Part shown: in pieces, positions 10,041 to 15,677 of the stretch
How positions within the stretch are numbered: the stretch's first letter is position 1
Layout: every line of letters begins with the position of its first letter
Assembly (NCBI GenBank): GCA_947630575.1
Contig: CANRIB010000011.1
Location: 1 to 32,628, forward strand
Length of the DNA stretch: 32,628 nucleotides
Direction: 5' to 3'
DNA from: an uncultured Bacilli bacterium
GTDB lineage: Bacteria > Bacillota_I > Bacilli_A > RF39 > UBA660
Notes under the pieces: generated by a model
Database searches by the model: none
Seen by the model: only the letters and a program-made list of their open reading frames with translations
What the model was told of the DNA's origin: nothing
Translations under genes and position numbers: made by a program

Positions 10041-10586
10041 ATGATTCTTTATATAGTAGATAATAAAATTAATGTTATATATAAAAATAAAGTTATTATT
10101 AATAGTTTTACAAGTATTATAGATGGATATATTATACAAAAAGATAGGTTTATGAATGAGTTTTTAAATATGATAAAAAAAGAGAAGATTAAAGGTAAAT
10201 TATTAGGAGATAAGTTAACTATTTTAAAAGAGTCTTATTATAGTATTAGTGATTTAGCTTTTTTGGAAAGTATTTTTTCAGATTTGGGTTTTATTAAAAT
10301 AGAATTTAGAAAGATAAATGATTTTTTTGATAGAGAAGCAACATATATTGAGATTAATAAAAATTATATGATAATAAATTTAGATAAAGGGTTATATTTA
10401 GATTTATATTATTATAAAGATATACCTAGAATTATAGAATATTTTAAGTATTTTATGGCTAAAGATATTATTTTATTTGGAACTAATAAGAATATACCAA
10501 ATATTAAAATTAAGGGGTTTAATGTGTATTTTATGGATAATAGAGATACATATATTGTAGATTGTTTACTCAAAGTAAAAAAATAG
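10041..10586 (+). CDS. Hypothetical protein, possibly a degenerate actin-like (ASKHA) protein
   Basis: Clean 181-aa ORF; position after spoIID-spoIIQ is where mreB/mbl often lies; no motif is decisive. Confidence 0.5.
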   Translation: MILYIVDNKINVIYKNKVIINSFTSIIDGYIIQKDRFMNEFLNMIKKEKIKGKLLGDKLTILKESYYSISDLAFLESIFSDLGFIKIEFRKINDFFDREATYIEINKNYMIINLDKGLYLDLYYYKDIPRIIEYFKYFMAKDIILFGTNKNIPNIKIKGFNVYFMDNRDTYIVDCLLKVKK

Positions 10587-10608: not shown

Positions 10609-10637
10609 TTGACTTTAGAACAAGTTTATATTATAAT
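10609..10637 (+). promoter_or_regulatory. Sigma-A promoter of the agrA/agrC-like operon
   Basis: TTGACT - 17 nt - TATAAT, ~35 nt upstream of ATG 10672. Confidence 0.7.
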
Positions 10638-10671: not shown

Positions 10672-11373
10672 ATGGTAAAGTTTATTTTAGTAGACGATGA
10701 TAAAAATGAATTAGAGCATATTAAAAGCTTACTAAATGAAATTGTAGAAGATGATAAGGAAATTTGTTGTTTTTCGAAAGTTACCACAGAATTAAAGCAA
10801 GAAATACAAAATACAGATAGTAGAAAAGTATATGTACTTGATATTGAATTAGGTAATAGCAAAGTTAGTGGAATTAGTATTGCTAAACTTATTAGAGCGA
10901 TCGACTGGGAAAGTGAAATTATTTTTATTACAAATCATGATAAGATGTTTGAATCTGTTCATAGAAGTATTTATGAAGTTTTTGATTTTATTGAAAAATT
11001 TCATGATTTTGATAAGAGATTTAAGAAGGATATTTTAGCTATACTTGATAAAAATTTTGATAATAAAATGTTTAAATATCAATCTAATAATAATATAGAG
11101 CTAAGTATATATTATCGTAAAATTTTATATATTTATAGAGATACTGAAGAAAGAAAGCTAGTAATTGTAACAGATAATAATACTTATATTGTTAATATGA
11201 ATATTAAAGATATATTGTTGCAGTTAGATAAAAGATTTAAACAATGTCATAGATCTTGTATTGTTAATGTTAATAAAATAGAAAAATTGGATTTTAAAGA
11301 AGGCTATTTTGTGTTAGATAATGGTGAAAAAGTGTATATGCTTTCTAAGAAGTATCGTAAAGATTTGGAGTAG
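10672..11373 (+). CDS. LytTR-type response regulator, AgrA-like
   Basis: Receiver (FILVDDDKNE, VYVLDIELG) and LytTR tail (FKQCHRSCIVNVNKIEKLDFKEGYFVLDNGEKVYMLSKKYR); start moved to ATG 10672 with an AAAGG SD. Confidence 0.88.
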   Translation: MVKFILVDDDKNELEHIKSLLNEIVEDDKEICCFSKVTTELKQEIQNTDSRKVYVLDIELGNSKVSGISIAKLIRAIDWESEIIFITNHDKMFESVHRSIYEVFDFIEKFHDFDKRFKKDILAILDKNFDNKMFKYQSNNNIELSIYYRKILYIYRDTEERKLVIVTDNNTYIVNMNIKDILLQLDKRFKQCHRSCIVNVNKIEKLDFKEGYFVLDNGEKVYMLSKKYRKDLE

Positions 11374-11377
11374 AAAT

Positions 11378-12637
11378 ATGAGTTTTGAAGTATTGATAGA
11401 TTTTATATCTTGTTTAATTTCTACTTTTGGTATAGCGTATTTTTTCTGTAAGATATCTAATACAAAAATTGTATATAAAAGATGGAAGGCAATTGCTTTT
11501 ATTATAATGTCAGTAATTACTACTTGTTTGCAAAGTGATGCTTTTAAAATTTTAAATTTTATGGCTTATTTCTTATTTTATCCTATGTATTTTAAGATAA
11601 TTTCAAAATTACCTTTTAAAAAAATATGGATATATACTGTACTGATATGGGTGGCTAGTGCTACTTTCGATTCTTTCTTTATGCTTTTAGTAACAATTAT
11701 TTTTTGGTTGTTTAATTTAAAACTAAATATGTCATTTTTTATTATTTTGGCAACTCTATTTTTAAATATTATTTATGTTTATGTTGGTAATTCCGCGAAA
11801 ATAAAAAAGATAGTTATAAAGTTAGTTGATTTTTTTAATAATGTTGTTTTTATGGATTTTGTAATTATTATATTTATTTTATTTTTAGTATTTACTTGTT
11901 ATGTTTTATTTATAAATTTACGTAATATAAAGATTTCATTGACATTATCGTTTATAATTATTTTATCTATATTTCTTTTTGTAACAATTTTGAATTACAA
12001 ACTTAGTAATTATGAAATGAAAGTTTTTTTAAAAAATTTAAAAGTTAATAATGATTTATATATTAAATCTCAGGATGAGTTTAGAATTTTTAGACATAAT
12101 TTAGTTAGTGAATTAAATTCAATTAAAAGTGTTTCTAATAAAAAATCGTCAATGTTAATACAAGATGTAATTGAAAAATATAATACAAAATATAGTGCTT
12201 CTATTATTGTTCAGCAATTGCCTTATGGATTAAATGGTATTATTTATGAAAAAATTTTTCCATATCAAAATGATATTAAATTTGATATTGAAAATAATGT
12301 TAAGGATGATTTATTTGATTTATTGAAACCTAAGAAATATAATTTGTTGGTTGAAAAATTGGGATTAATGATGGATAATGCAATAGAAGCATGTTTAAGT
12401 TCTGAAAAAAGGGATTTAAAATTGGAGATTAACATCAATAATGGTGTTATTAATATTAAAATTATTAATACGTTTAAAGGTAGCTTAAATATTGATAAAT
12501 TAGGTAATAAAAATTATACTACTAAAGAAAATGGCAATGGATTAGGTTTGTTTTCAATTCTTTTAACTAAAAACATTAAGTTAGATATTAAAATAATTGA
12601 AGATATGTTTATAAGTTCTATAAGCCTTAAATTATAA
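11378..12637 (+). CDS. GHKL sensor histidine kinase, AgrC-like
   Basis: Multiple TM helices; FRHNLVSELNSIK; C-terminal GLMMDNAIEACLSS...ENGNGLGLFSI; start moved to ATG 11378. Confidence 0.85.
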   Translation: MSFEVLIDFISCLISTFGIAYFFCKISNTKIVYKRWKAIAFIIMSVITTCLQSDAFKILNFMAYFLFYPMYFKIISKLPFKKIWIYTVLIWVASATFDSFFMLLVTIIFWLFNLKLNMSFFIILATLFLNIIYVYVGNSAKIKKIVIKLVDFFNNVVFMDFVIIIFILFLVFTCYVLFINLRNIKISLTLSFIIILSIFLFVTILNYKLSNYEMKVFLKNLKVNNDLYIKSQDEFRIFRHNLVSELNSIKSVSNKKSSMLIQDVIEKYNTKYSASIIVQQLPYGLNGIIYEKIFPYQNDIKFDIENNVKDDLFDLLKPKKYNLLVEKLGLMMDNAIEACLSSEKRDLKLEININNGVINIKIINTFKGSLNIDKLGNKNYTTKENGNGLGLFSILLTKNIKLDIKIIEDMFISSISLKL

Positions 12638-12684: not shown

Positions 12685-12710
12685 AAATACTACTTTTTAT
12701 TAAAATAAAA

Positions 12711-12746
12711 AGACTGTTTTCCAAATTTAAAATTTGTAAACAGTCT
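12711..12746 (-). terminator. Terminator of the agrB-agrD transcript
   Basis: AGACTGTTT ... AAACAGTCT perfect 9-bp stem; minus strand continues into TTTTTATTTTAAT. Confidence 0.7.
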
Positions 12747-12776
12747 AGGTTTAATCATATGATTAACTTATAATAA

Positions 12777-12893
12777 TTATCTTAATTCTTCTGGGCAAGT
12801 TGGTTCATCAAAAACAAAGTATGGTGTTCTAGCGTCTCCATTACTTGCAGATAAAGATGCTCCTGCAAGAGCATTTGCAATCATTTCTAACAT
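12777..12893 (-). CDS. AgrD-like autoinducing peptide precursor (38 aa), not in the ORF track
   Basis: MLEMIANALAGASLSASNGDARTPYFVFDEPTCPEELR; SD AAAGGAGGT just upstream; directly downstream of agrB; tail DEPTCPEEL resembles AgrD DExxxPxEL recognition tails. Confidence 0.75.
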   Translation of the reverse strand: MLEMIANALAGASLSASNGDARTPYFVFDEPTCPEELR

Positions 12894-12952: not shown

Positions 12953-13543
12953 TTAAATTTTTTTGTAATTGTTATAAGGTGTTTTATTTAGAAAATAAAA
13001 AATTGGATTTATTAGTATTGATGTTTGTAGTATGCTTATGCTTGTAATATTTATTAATAAATTATTGTTTGTTAAATATATTATTAAGAAATATATTAGC
13101 CATATTATTAAAGATTTACATTTAAGACTTATTCGTTCATTTTTTCTTATTAATGGTCTTTTGGGTGTATCAGCAGGTGCAAATAAAATTATTGAGAATA
13201 GTCCAATTAGCATTAAGATAAATGCTATGTTTTTTGAAAATGAGTAATATTTTATTATTAATGGTAGCCCTATGTAAGTAATAATTGTAAATATCCAACA
13301 TGAAATGTTATTTTTTGCATGAAATCCAAAACTGACACTTCTTATTATTGCGTAAAAAAACATTAATAATATGGTTTCTAACAAAGTTTTAAATATTAAT
13401 GATAGTATTAAAACAGTTGAAACTTTAGTGATTAAACTATATATTCCTTCTAAGCCGTATTTTAATCGCATATTTTTAACATCGTTACATTCTTGATATT
13501 TATTTATGAATGCAAGCGAATTATTTACAAATTTTTCTTTCAT
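12953..13543 (-). CDS. agrB: AgrB-family peptide-processing membrane protease
   Basis: RSVSFGFHAKNNISCW (catalytic His/Cys context), APADTPKRPL, multiple TM helices. Confidence 0.88.
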   Translation of the reverse strand: MKEKFVNNSLAFINKYQECNDVKNMRLKYGLEGIYSLITKVSTVLILSLIFKTLLETILLMFFYAIIRSVSFGFHAKNNISCWIFTIITYIGLPLIIKYYSFSKNIAFILMLIGLFSIILFAPADTPKRPLIRKNERISLKCKSLIIWLIYFLIIYLTNNNLLINITSISILQTSILINPIFYFLNKTPYNNYKKI

Positions 13544-13780
13544 TTCATTTTAAACTTCCTCACAACAAAAAGAGTATAACTTATTTTAAAAATTATTTAT
13601 ATATTCTTTACTTAAAGTTGCAGTATTTTGGTTTAAAATTATATTTATGAGTTTAGAGTTTTAGATATGATAAATTTTAAACATTAAAGTACAGTTTTTA
13701 GACAATGATATTTAATTTTAAATTTAAATGTGGTATCTTTGGGATGACTTGATATTAAAGAGAAGTTTTTTCTTGCAAAT

Positions 13781-14663: not shown

Positions 14664-14795
14664 TGGCTAGAAAATAGTCATTTTTCTTTTAGTTATAGAA
14701 ATATGTAAAATGGTGTATATTTTCATTATTTATTGATTTTGTGATTGCTTTAAGATTTTATTTATGATTTAATGATATTGAAAGTAGATGGTTTT

Positions 14796-15677
14796 ATGAA
14801 AAATGGAGAAAGAATAGTGTATATAGTAACGATTGTTATTTTATTGATAATTATTGCAGGAGGGGCTACTTATATTGTTATGATGAATAAAAGTCATGAT
14901 GATATTGTAGATAAAGATGATGATAAAGATATTGATGATAATCGTGATTCAAATGTTTCTTTAGATGATCAAATTAAGTTTCTTAAAACAAATGTTATTG
15001 GAAATAGAATTGTTCAGGAATATGAAATTAAGTTAAATGGAAAAACTAATAAATTAAAAGTGGATTATTTATATTCTACTGATGATGATATAGAAATAGT
15101 TGAAGGAAGGTTTAATGATAATGTTTTATATTTAGATGAAGAGAATATGTATGATGAAGATGGTGAATTAGATATTAATAAAGATGAAATGTTTAGTTCT
15201 AAAAATTTAAGAGAAGAATTTAATAAAGATAACTTTAGAATAATTAAAGGGGAAGATAATAAAAGTTATTTATTAATTATGACAGAAGAAGATGTTTTAA
15301 GTCATTTGTTAATTTTAAATGATGATTTAGAGATTATTAATAAAAGTTTTAATAATTATGGAGTTGAAGCTCAAGAAGATGATAATAAATATGGAATGAT
15401 TATTTTAGGTTATAATAATTGGAAGATAGAAAATAGTAATAAATGGGTTAAATATGATGATCAATTTGATTTATGTGATAATGATGATATGTGTTATCCT
15501 CATTTGAAAATAGAAGATAATAAGATATATTATTTATATCCTGTTTTAAAAAGTGATTTTGAAGAAGGAGATTATGGTTATTTAGAAGAAAGAGTATATA
15601 CAATTAAAGATAATGAAATTCATTATGAAATAATTGATAAAAATAAAATTATTGATGCGAGTGGACAATTACCATAG
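14796..15677 (+). CDS. Hypothetical membrane-anchored acidic protein
   Basis: N-terminal TM (IVYIVTIVILLIIIAGGATYIVM) then Asp/Glu-rich ectodomain; no recognised family. Confidence 0.7.
   Translation: MKNGERIVYIVTIVILLIIIAGGATYIVMMNKSHDDIVDKDDDKDIDDNRDSNVSLDDQIKFLKTNVIGNRIVQEYEIKLNGKTNKLKVDYLYSTDDDIEIVEGRFNDNVLYLDEENMYDEDGELDINKDEMFSSKNLREEFNKDNFRIIKGEDNKSYLLIMTEEDVLSHLLILNDDLEIINKSFNNYGVEAQEDDNKYGMIILGYNNWKIENSNKWVKYDDQFDLCDNDDMCYPHLKIEDNKIYYLYPVLKSDFEEGDYGYLEERVYTIKDNEIHYEIIDKNKIIDASGQLP

Follow-up and report, generated by a model that had tools for sequence, protein, structure and literature searches.

Staphylococcal Agr systems pair AgrB, a membrane peptidase with a His/Cys dyad, with AgrD, a precursor built of an N-terminal helix, a ring and an acidic tail of the type DE..xP.EL, and they carry a GHKL sensor and a LytTR regulator within the same agrBDCA operon. 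In Staphylococcus aureus, AgrB His77/Cys84 cuts AgrD to give an acyl-enzyme thioester, and AgrD Cys28 then closes the ring of the autoinducing peptide (AIP), a thiolactone (PMC10482373; PMC4979651). Work on the Listeria peptide likewise describes the AIP ring residue as Cys, with Ser replacing it in some cases (PMC4916163). Ser lactones, in which a hydroxyl side chain closes a ring of five or nine residues, are known from S. intermedius/S. pseudintermedius and from the E. faecalis peptide GBAP (PMC3673130). Six-residue rings occur in Clostridium acetobutylicum and its relatives, as Cys thiolactones (PMC10301443; PMC4916163). Ring closure by Cys and by Ser is thus established, and closure by Thr, which the comparisons below point to, is probably new; the literature that we searched, largely open-access, contained no report of a Thr-closed AIP, although such an absence is not proof.

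The window, a stretch of 32,628 nucleotides from an uncultured bacterium of the genus ‘Candidatus Caccenecus’, which the NCBI taxonomy places in Bacilli incertae sedis, carries an Agr locus with the staphylococcal components in a different arrangement: agrB and agrD are convergent with agrA and agrC rather than joined with them in one operon. The agrB gene (12953..13543, minus strand) encodes a 196-residue membrane peptidase/cyclase that matches PF04647 with E=6.7e-34 and 117 bits (cut-off 23). Together with the catalytic pair His75 and Cys82, which we take to be the equivalents of S. aureus His77 and Cys84, this match places the protein in the AgrB peptidase family (PF04647, C75); a comparison by sequence returned no solved AgrB structure. 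On the opposite side of agrD lie an agrA-like response regulator (10672..11373, plus strand) with receiver and LytTR domains (Response_reg, PF00072; LytTR, PF04397) and an agrC-like sensor kinase (11378..12637, plus strand) with a membrane domain and a GHKL ATPase (PF14501, E=7e-6), so that a GHKL sensor and a LytTR regulator adjoin agrBD as in known Agr loci. The AgrA model NF046049 matched the regulator at E=8e-15, under the model's cut-off. For the regulator, the ATG at 10672 is a more likely start than the listed TTG at 10609, and the sensor gene, which lies in an open reading frame spanning 11321-12637, probably begins at the ATG at 11378.

Reading the sequence directly, we found an inverted repeat, AGACTGTTT...AAACAGTCT, at 12709..12747 between the convergent agrC and agrD genes. 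It is a probable two-way terminator, although a terminator scan did not return it. Upstream of agrB (13544..13650, minus strand), an alignment of the upstream regions of the genus revealed two conserved boxes, one resembling AGTTACTTtaAGCAAAC and one GAGTTATACT, the latter probably the -10 element of the agrB promoter. The AGTTACTTtaAGCAAAC box could be a candidate binding site for the AgrA-like regulator. Beyond agrB follow csp and hpf, both identified by Pfam, a gene that Pfam did not match, and secA, whose name we took from its sequence. The open reading frames at 10041-10586 and 14772-15677 had no Pfam match; the former is flanked by an M23 peptidase gene and agrA, and the genus keeps it beside the locus. 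The order agrA and agrC in one direction, agrD and agrB convergent to them, then csp, hpf and secA in the forward direction is retained in most loci across the family (about 100 genera), which makes the agr loci of the family orthologues rather than transferred copies.

A first-pass annotation of the window had pointed to an open reading frame for 38 residues, with a strong Shine-Dalgarno sequence, after agrB, and this is a real agrD (12777..12893, minus strand). It begins with ATG 59 nt downstream of agrB on the same strand, is preceded by its own Shine-Dalgarno sequence AAAGGAGG and encodes MLEMIANALAGASLSASNGDARTPYFVFDEPTCPEELR. Its conservation directly after agrB within the genus rules out a chance open reading frame. 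The product is predicted to comprise an amphipathic N-terminal part, a ring TPYFVF (or TPYFV) and a tail DEPTCPEELR. The tail fits the acidic DExxxPxEL type, as the annotation had proposed, and among in-register family rows its Asp is found in 120 of 130 and its Glu in 128 of 130. The sole Cys lies in this tail, DEPTCPEEL, just as that annotation described, leaving the mature part without one. The ring-closing position lies six residues ahead of the DEP Asp and is occupied by Thr23 (codon ACA, 12825..12827, minus strand); other relatives have Cys or Ser there, and known AgrDs have Cys, or Ser in the lactone members. The annotation had offered Thr as one possibility for this role, counting the ring position as five residues from the C-terminus of the peptide; the relatives place it six before the tail. 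The profile TIGR04223 matched the window AgrD weakly, its 13.8 bits falling below the cut-off of 19. The same profile matched 20 of 25 Thr-type relatives at E<=0.01, so many Thr-type AgrDs are probably already in databases under the generic AgrD name.

A precursor lacking Cys at this position could be explained away if a Cys-containing one were encoded elsewhere. We found no such rival: TIGR04223 gave no match to a second AgrD-like precursor in this genome at E<=1, and the genome holds a single AgrB.

Nor is the precursor a quirk of one strain. AgrB is encoded in 33 of 36 genomes of the genus, and an AgrD gene follows agrB in all 31 loci that could be read (31 of the 33 genomes with AgrB; in the others the contigs end). 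These genes share a strong Shine-Dalgarno sequence and a (D/N)EPxCPxxL-type tail, with one exception, whose tail is DEPTYPKEL. The ring position is Thr in 28 of the 31 precursors, Cys in three and Ser in none. The Thr types include the window (DARTPYFVF|DEPTCPEEL), L003 (DARTVWFVW|DEPECPEDL) and L009 (TPYTYWFIF|DEPECPEEL). Cys stands exactly at the position of the window Thr in the orthologues L020 (ENRCAWFFY|DEPTYPKEL), L026 (SPACAWLFW|DEPECPEEL) and L034, which bears out the alignment of the precursors. Most relatives are metagenome bins, and sample labels (‘Lapin’, goat caecum/rectum) suggest animal guts.

To see the position in a wider frame, we sampled 243 genomes of the family, 149 of them with AgrB, and read most of those loci, taking the gene after AgrB without requiring any particular residue at the ring position. 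Across 152 precursors, the residue at -6, that is, six residues ahead of the first residue of the conserved D-E-P tail, was Cys in 103, Thr in 39 and Ser in 6; the remaining 4 have Cys at -7. One locus with a second-copy AgrB and another layout (L165) was omitted from this count, and L164 gave no precursor. We then built a quick tree of the Csp, HPF and SecA proteins encoded beside agrBD in these loci, in which several rows are incomplete across the columns. The ring residue changes 13 times on it and never leaves the set Cys, Thr and Ser. Taken by itself, the Thr label requires 12 changes, of which well-supported branches force at least 10; changes in both directions enter these counts. The AgrB tree yields 12-13. 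The ring columns from -5 to -1, by comparison, undergo 62-86 changes each, into 10-13 residue types. Two bases separate the Cys codons TGT/TGC from the Thr codons ACN; Ser codons link them, and both kinds, TCN and AGY, were seen. This pattern is most simply read as selection that keeps a nucleophilic side chain in the ring position.

Two closely related AgrD types, L278/L042 and L043 (...TSKTCMFAFDEP and ...TSRTCTFIFDEP), have Thr at -6 plus Cys at -5. They were scored as Thr, a call that is uncertain as either residue could close the ring; they might represent an intermediate state or a five-residue Cys ring. The residue at -7 is mostly Ala or Gly before Cys and Ser, and Arg, Phe, Tyr or Glu before Thr; the association of a bulky -7 residue with Thr as against Ala/Gly with Cys is a weak trend (4.6 vs 0.9 of 11 independent pairs). 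The omitted locus, L165 (G111:C17), combines its second, divergent AgrB with an AgrD-like open reading frame, MKKISKIIAKASLRAAEKAMNKSSDWILFQTKEPKNLRKMLRK, which lies outside the family layout and has a possible Ser ring.

Taken with the known chemistry of AgrB, these comparisons lead us to consider it likely that the signal of the window locus is a Thr lactone with the six-residue ring TPYFVF. From thioester chemistry and lactone formation to ring size, trimming and receptor activation, the pathway that we infer would run as follows. AgrB would hold AgrD through the N-terminal helix and the acidic DEP..CPEEL tail; Cys82, aided by His75, would cut ahead of the tail and retain the peptide as a thioester (acyl-enzyme); the hydroxyl of Thr23, replacing the usual Cys thiol, would attack the thioester to form the lactone T-P-Y-F-V-F; a second protease would then trim the N-terminal part, and the trimmed peptide would activate the convergent AgrC-AgrA pair. 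Such a product would share a hydroxyl-closed ring with the staphylococcal and enterococcal lactones, with Thr in place of Ser. Its predicted spacing of six residues from nucleophile to cleavage site would be that of the C. acetobutylicum-type AgrD, which is a Cys thiolactone precursor from another bacterial class; compared with staphylococcal AgrD, there is one extra residue between the ring position and the tail.

The first-pass annotation had left three readings standing, a Thr-linked lactone, a linear signal and an unusual cleavage site, and the evolutionary pattern strongly favours the first of them, with ring closure itself inferred from that pattern. A linear signal, cut from the precursor by AgrB or another protease with no ring role for Thr, would sit well with a mature peptide in which no Cys is available. 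It would not explain, however, why the position stays Cys, Thr or Ser across 13 changes, or why Thr, in orthologous loci, takes the place of Cys precisely at the ring residue, and linear staphylococcal peptides are inactive (PMC10482373). Because -6 is occupied only by Cys, Thr or Ser while its neighbours change often and into many residue types, we favour a ring-closing nucleophile and hold a linear signal to be very unlikely. Still less probable is that the Cys of the DEPTCPEEL tail is the real nucleophile, or a helper for Thr cyclisation. That Cys is present in 39 of the 41 Thr types and in 45 of the 114 Cys types, but Cys types of the same clade carry it as well, two Thr types (L052 and L106) lack it, and 11 independent pairs show no association beyond ancestry; moreover, known systems discard the tail.

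Rivals within the lactone reading, on ring size and on the final form of the signal, carry somewhat more weight. If AgrB cut one residue earlier, leaving the tail F-DEPTCPEELR, Thr23 would close a five-residue ring, TPYFV; this is by far the commonest ring size (PMC4916163), and in the other Bacilli families sampled the nucleophile mostly lies five before the tail. Throughout nearly the whole family studied here, by contrast, it lies at -6, as for the six-residue ring of C. acetobutylicum (PMC10301443). The tails themselves tell against the shorter ring, since DEPTCPEEL is comparable to the S. aureus tail DEVEVPKEL. S. aureus AgrD is cleaved immediately ahead of the first residue of DEVEVPKEL, an Asp whose counterpart here is that of DEP, and we therefore prefer the six-residue ring and judge the five-residue one unlikely, if worth keeping in view. 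A fully trimmed Thr lactone might also undergo an O-to-N acyl shift, making homodetic cyclo(TPYFVF) the real signal. For the Listeria thiolactone without exocyclic residues the half-life of such a rearrangement is 1.3 min, and the corresponding lactone shifts too, more slowly (PMC11297923). The shift would, however, require removal of all exocyclic residues, and the lactone and homodetic forms are indistinguishable by mass alone; we think it rather improbable that the homodetic form is the signal.

Returning to the six-residue Thr lactone, a caveat comes from S. aureus, whose AgrB1 and AgrB2 cannot process Ser-containing AgrD (PMC10482373), so that oxygen nucleophiles are not automatically accepted and some adaptation of AgrB to Thr, which is bulkier than Ser, would be expected. 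In favour of the lactone, the catalytic His75 and Cys82, like Gly73 and Asp125, do not vary among 167 relatives, be their precursors of the Cys, Thr or Ser type. Elsewhere in AgrB, Asn79 (13307-13309, minus strand), between His75 and Cys82, is shared by 27 of the 41 Thr types and by 1 of about 115 Cys types; Asn65 (13349-13351, minus strand) shows the reverse pattern, accompanying Cys types. Pagel-type tests of these two residues against the switch gave only an uncorrected p of about 0.01, with 741 characters to correct for, independent pairs ranked both together with many other sites, and after multiple-test correction no AgrB site clearly tracks the change from Cys to Thr. Asn79 is nonetheless the most interesting lead in AgrB, though ancestry could explain its distribution.

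More broadly, we think it probable that these loci define a natural class of Thr-lactone AIPs, one that is the norm in a single genus and arose several times in the family through repeated switching among Cys, Ser and Thr at a vertically inherited locus. If so, AgrB here would accept both sulfur and oxygen nucleophiles, and switching would be a route by which quorum-sensing signals diversify. The 13 changes within one orthologous locus offer a natural experiment on nucleophile choice by AgrB, bearing on why a hydroxyl nucleophile serves some AgrB proteins and not others, such as those of S. aureus, and on whether lactone signals are selected because they are specific or because they withstand acyl shift and thiol exchange. 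If Thr is used too, entire groups of gut bacteria would escape searches that demand a Cys.

Hydroxyl-closed signals may also be commoner than thought. Among AgrD-like precursors of other Bacilli families, Ser stands at the classical -5 position in L277, L280 and L287 (SASTWFI-HQP, STSLWFV-HQP and SISVLGM-YQP), and in another Bacilli family an AgrD beside AgrB (L253/L282, G518) has Thr at -5, RVTWGGL|YQPQKP.
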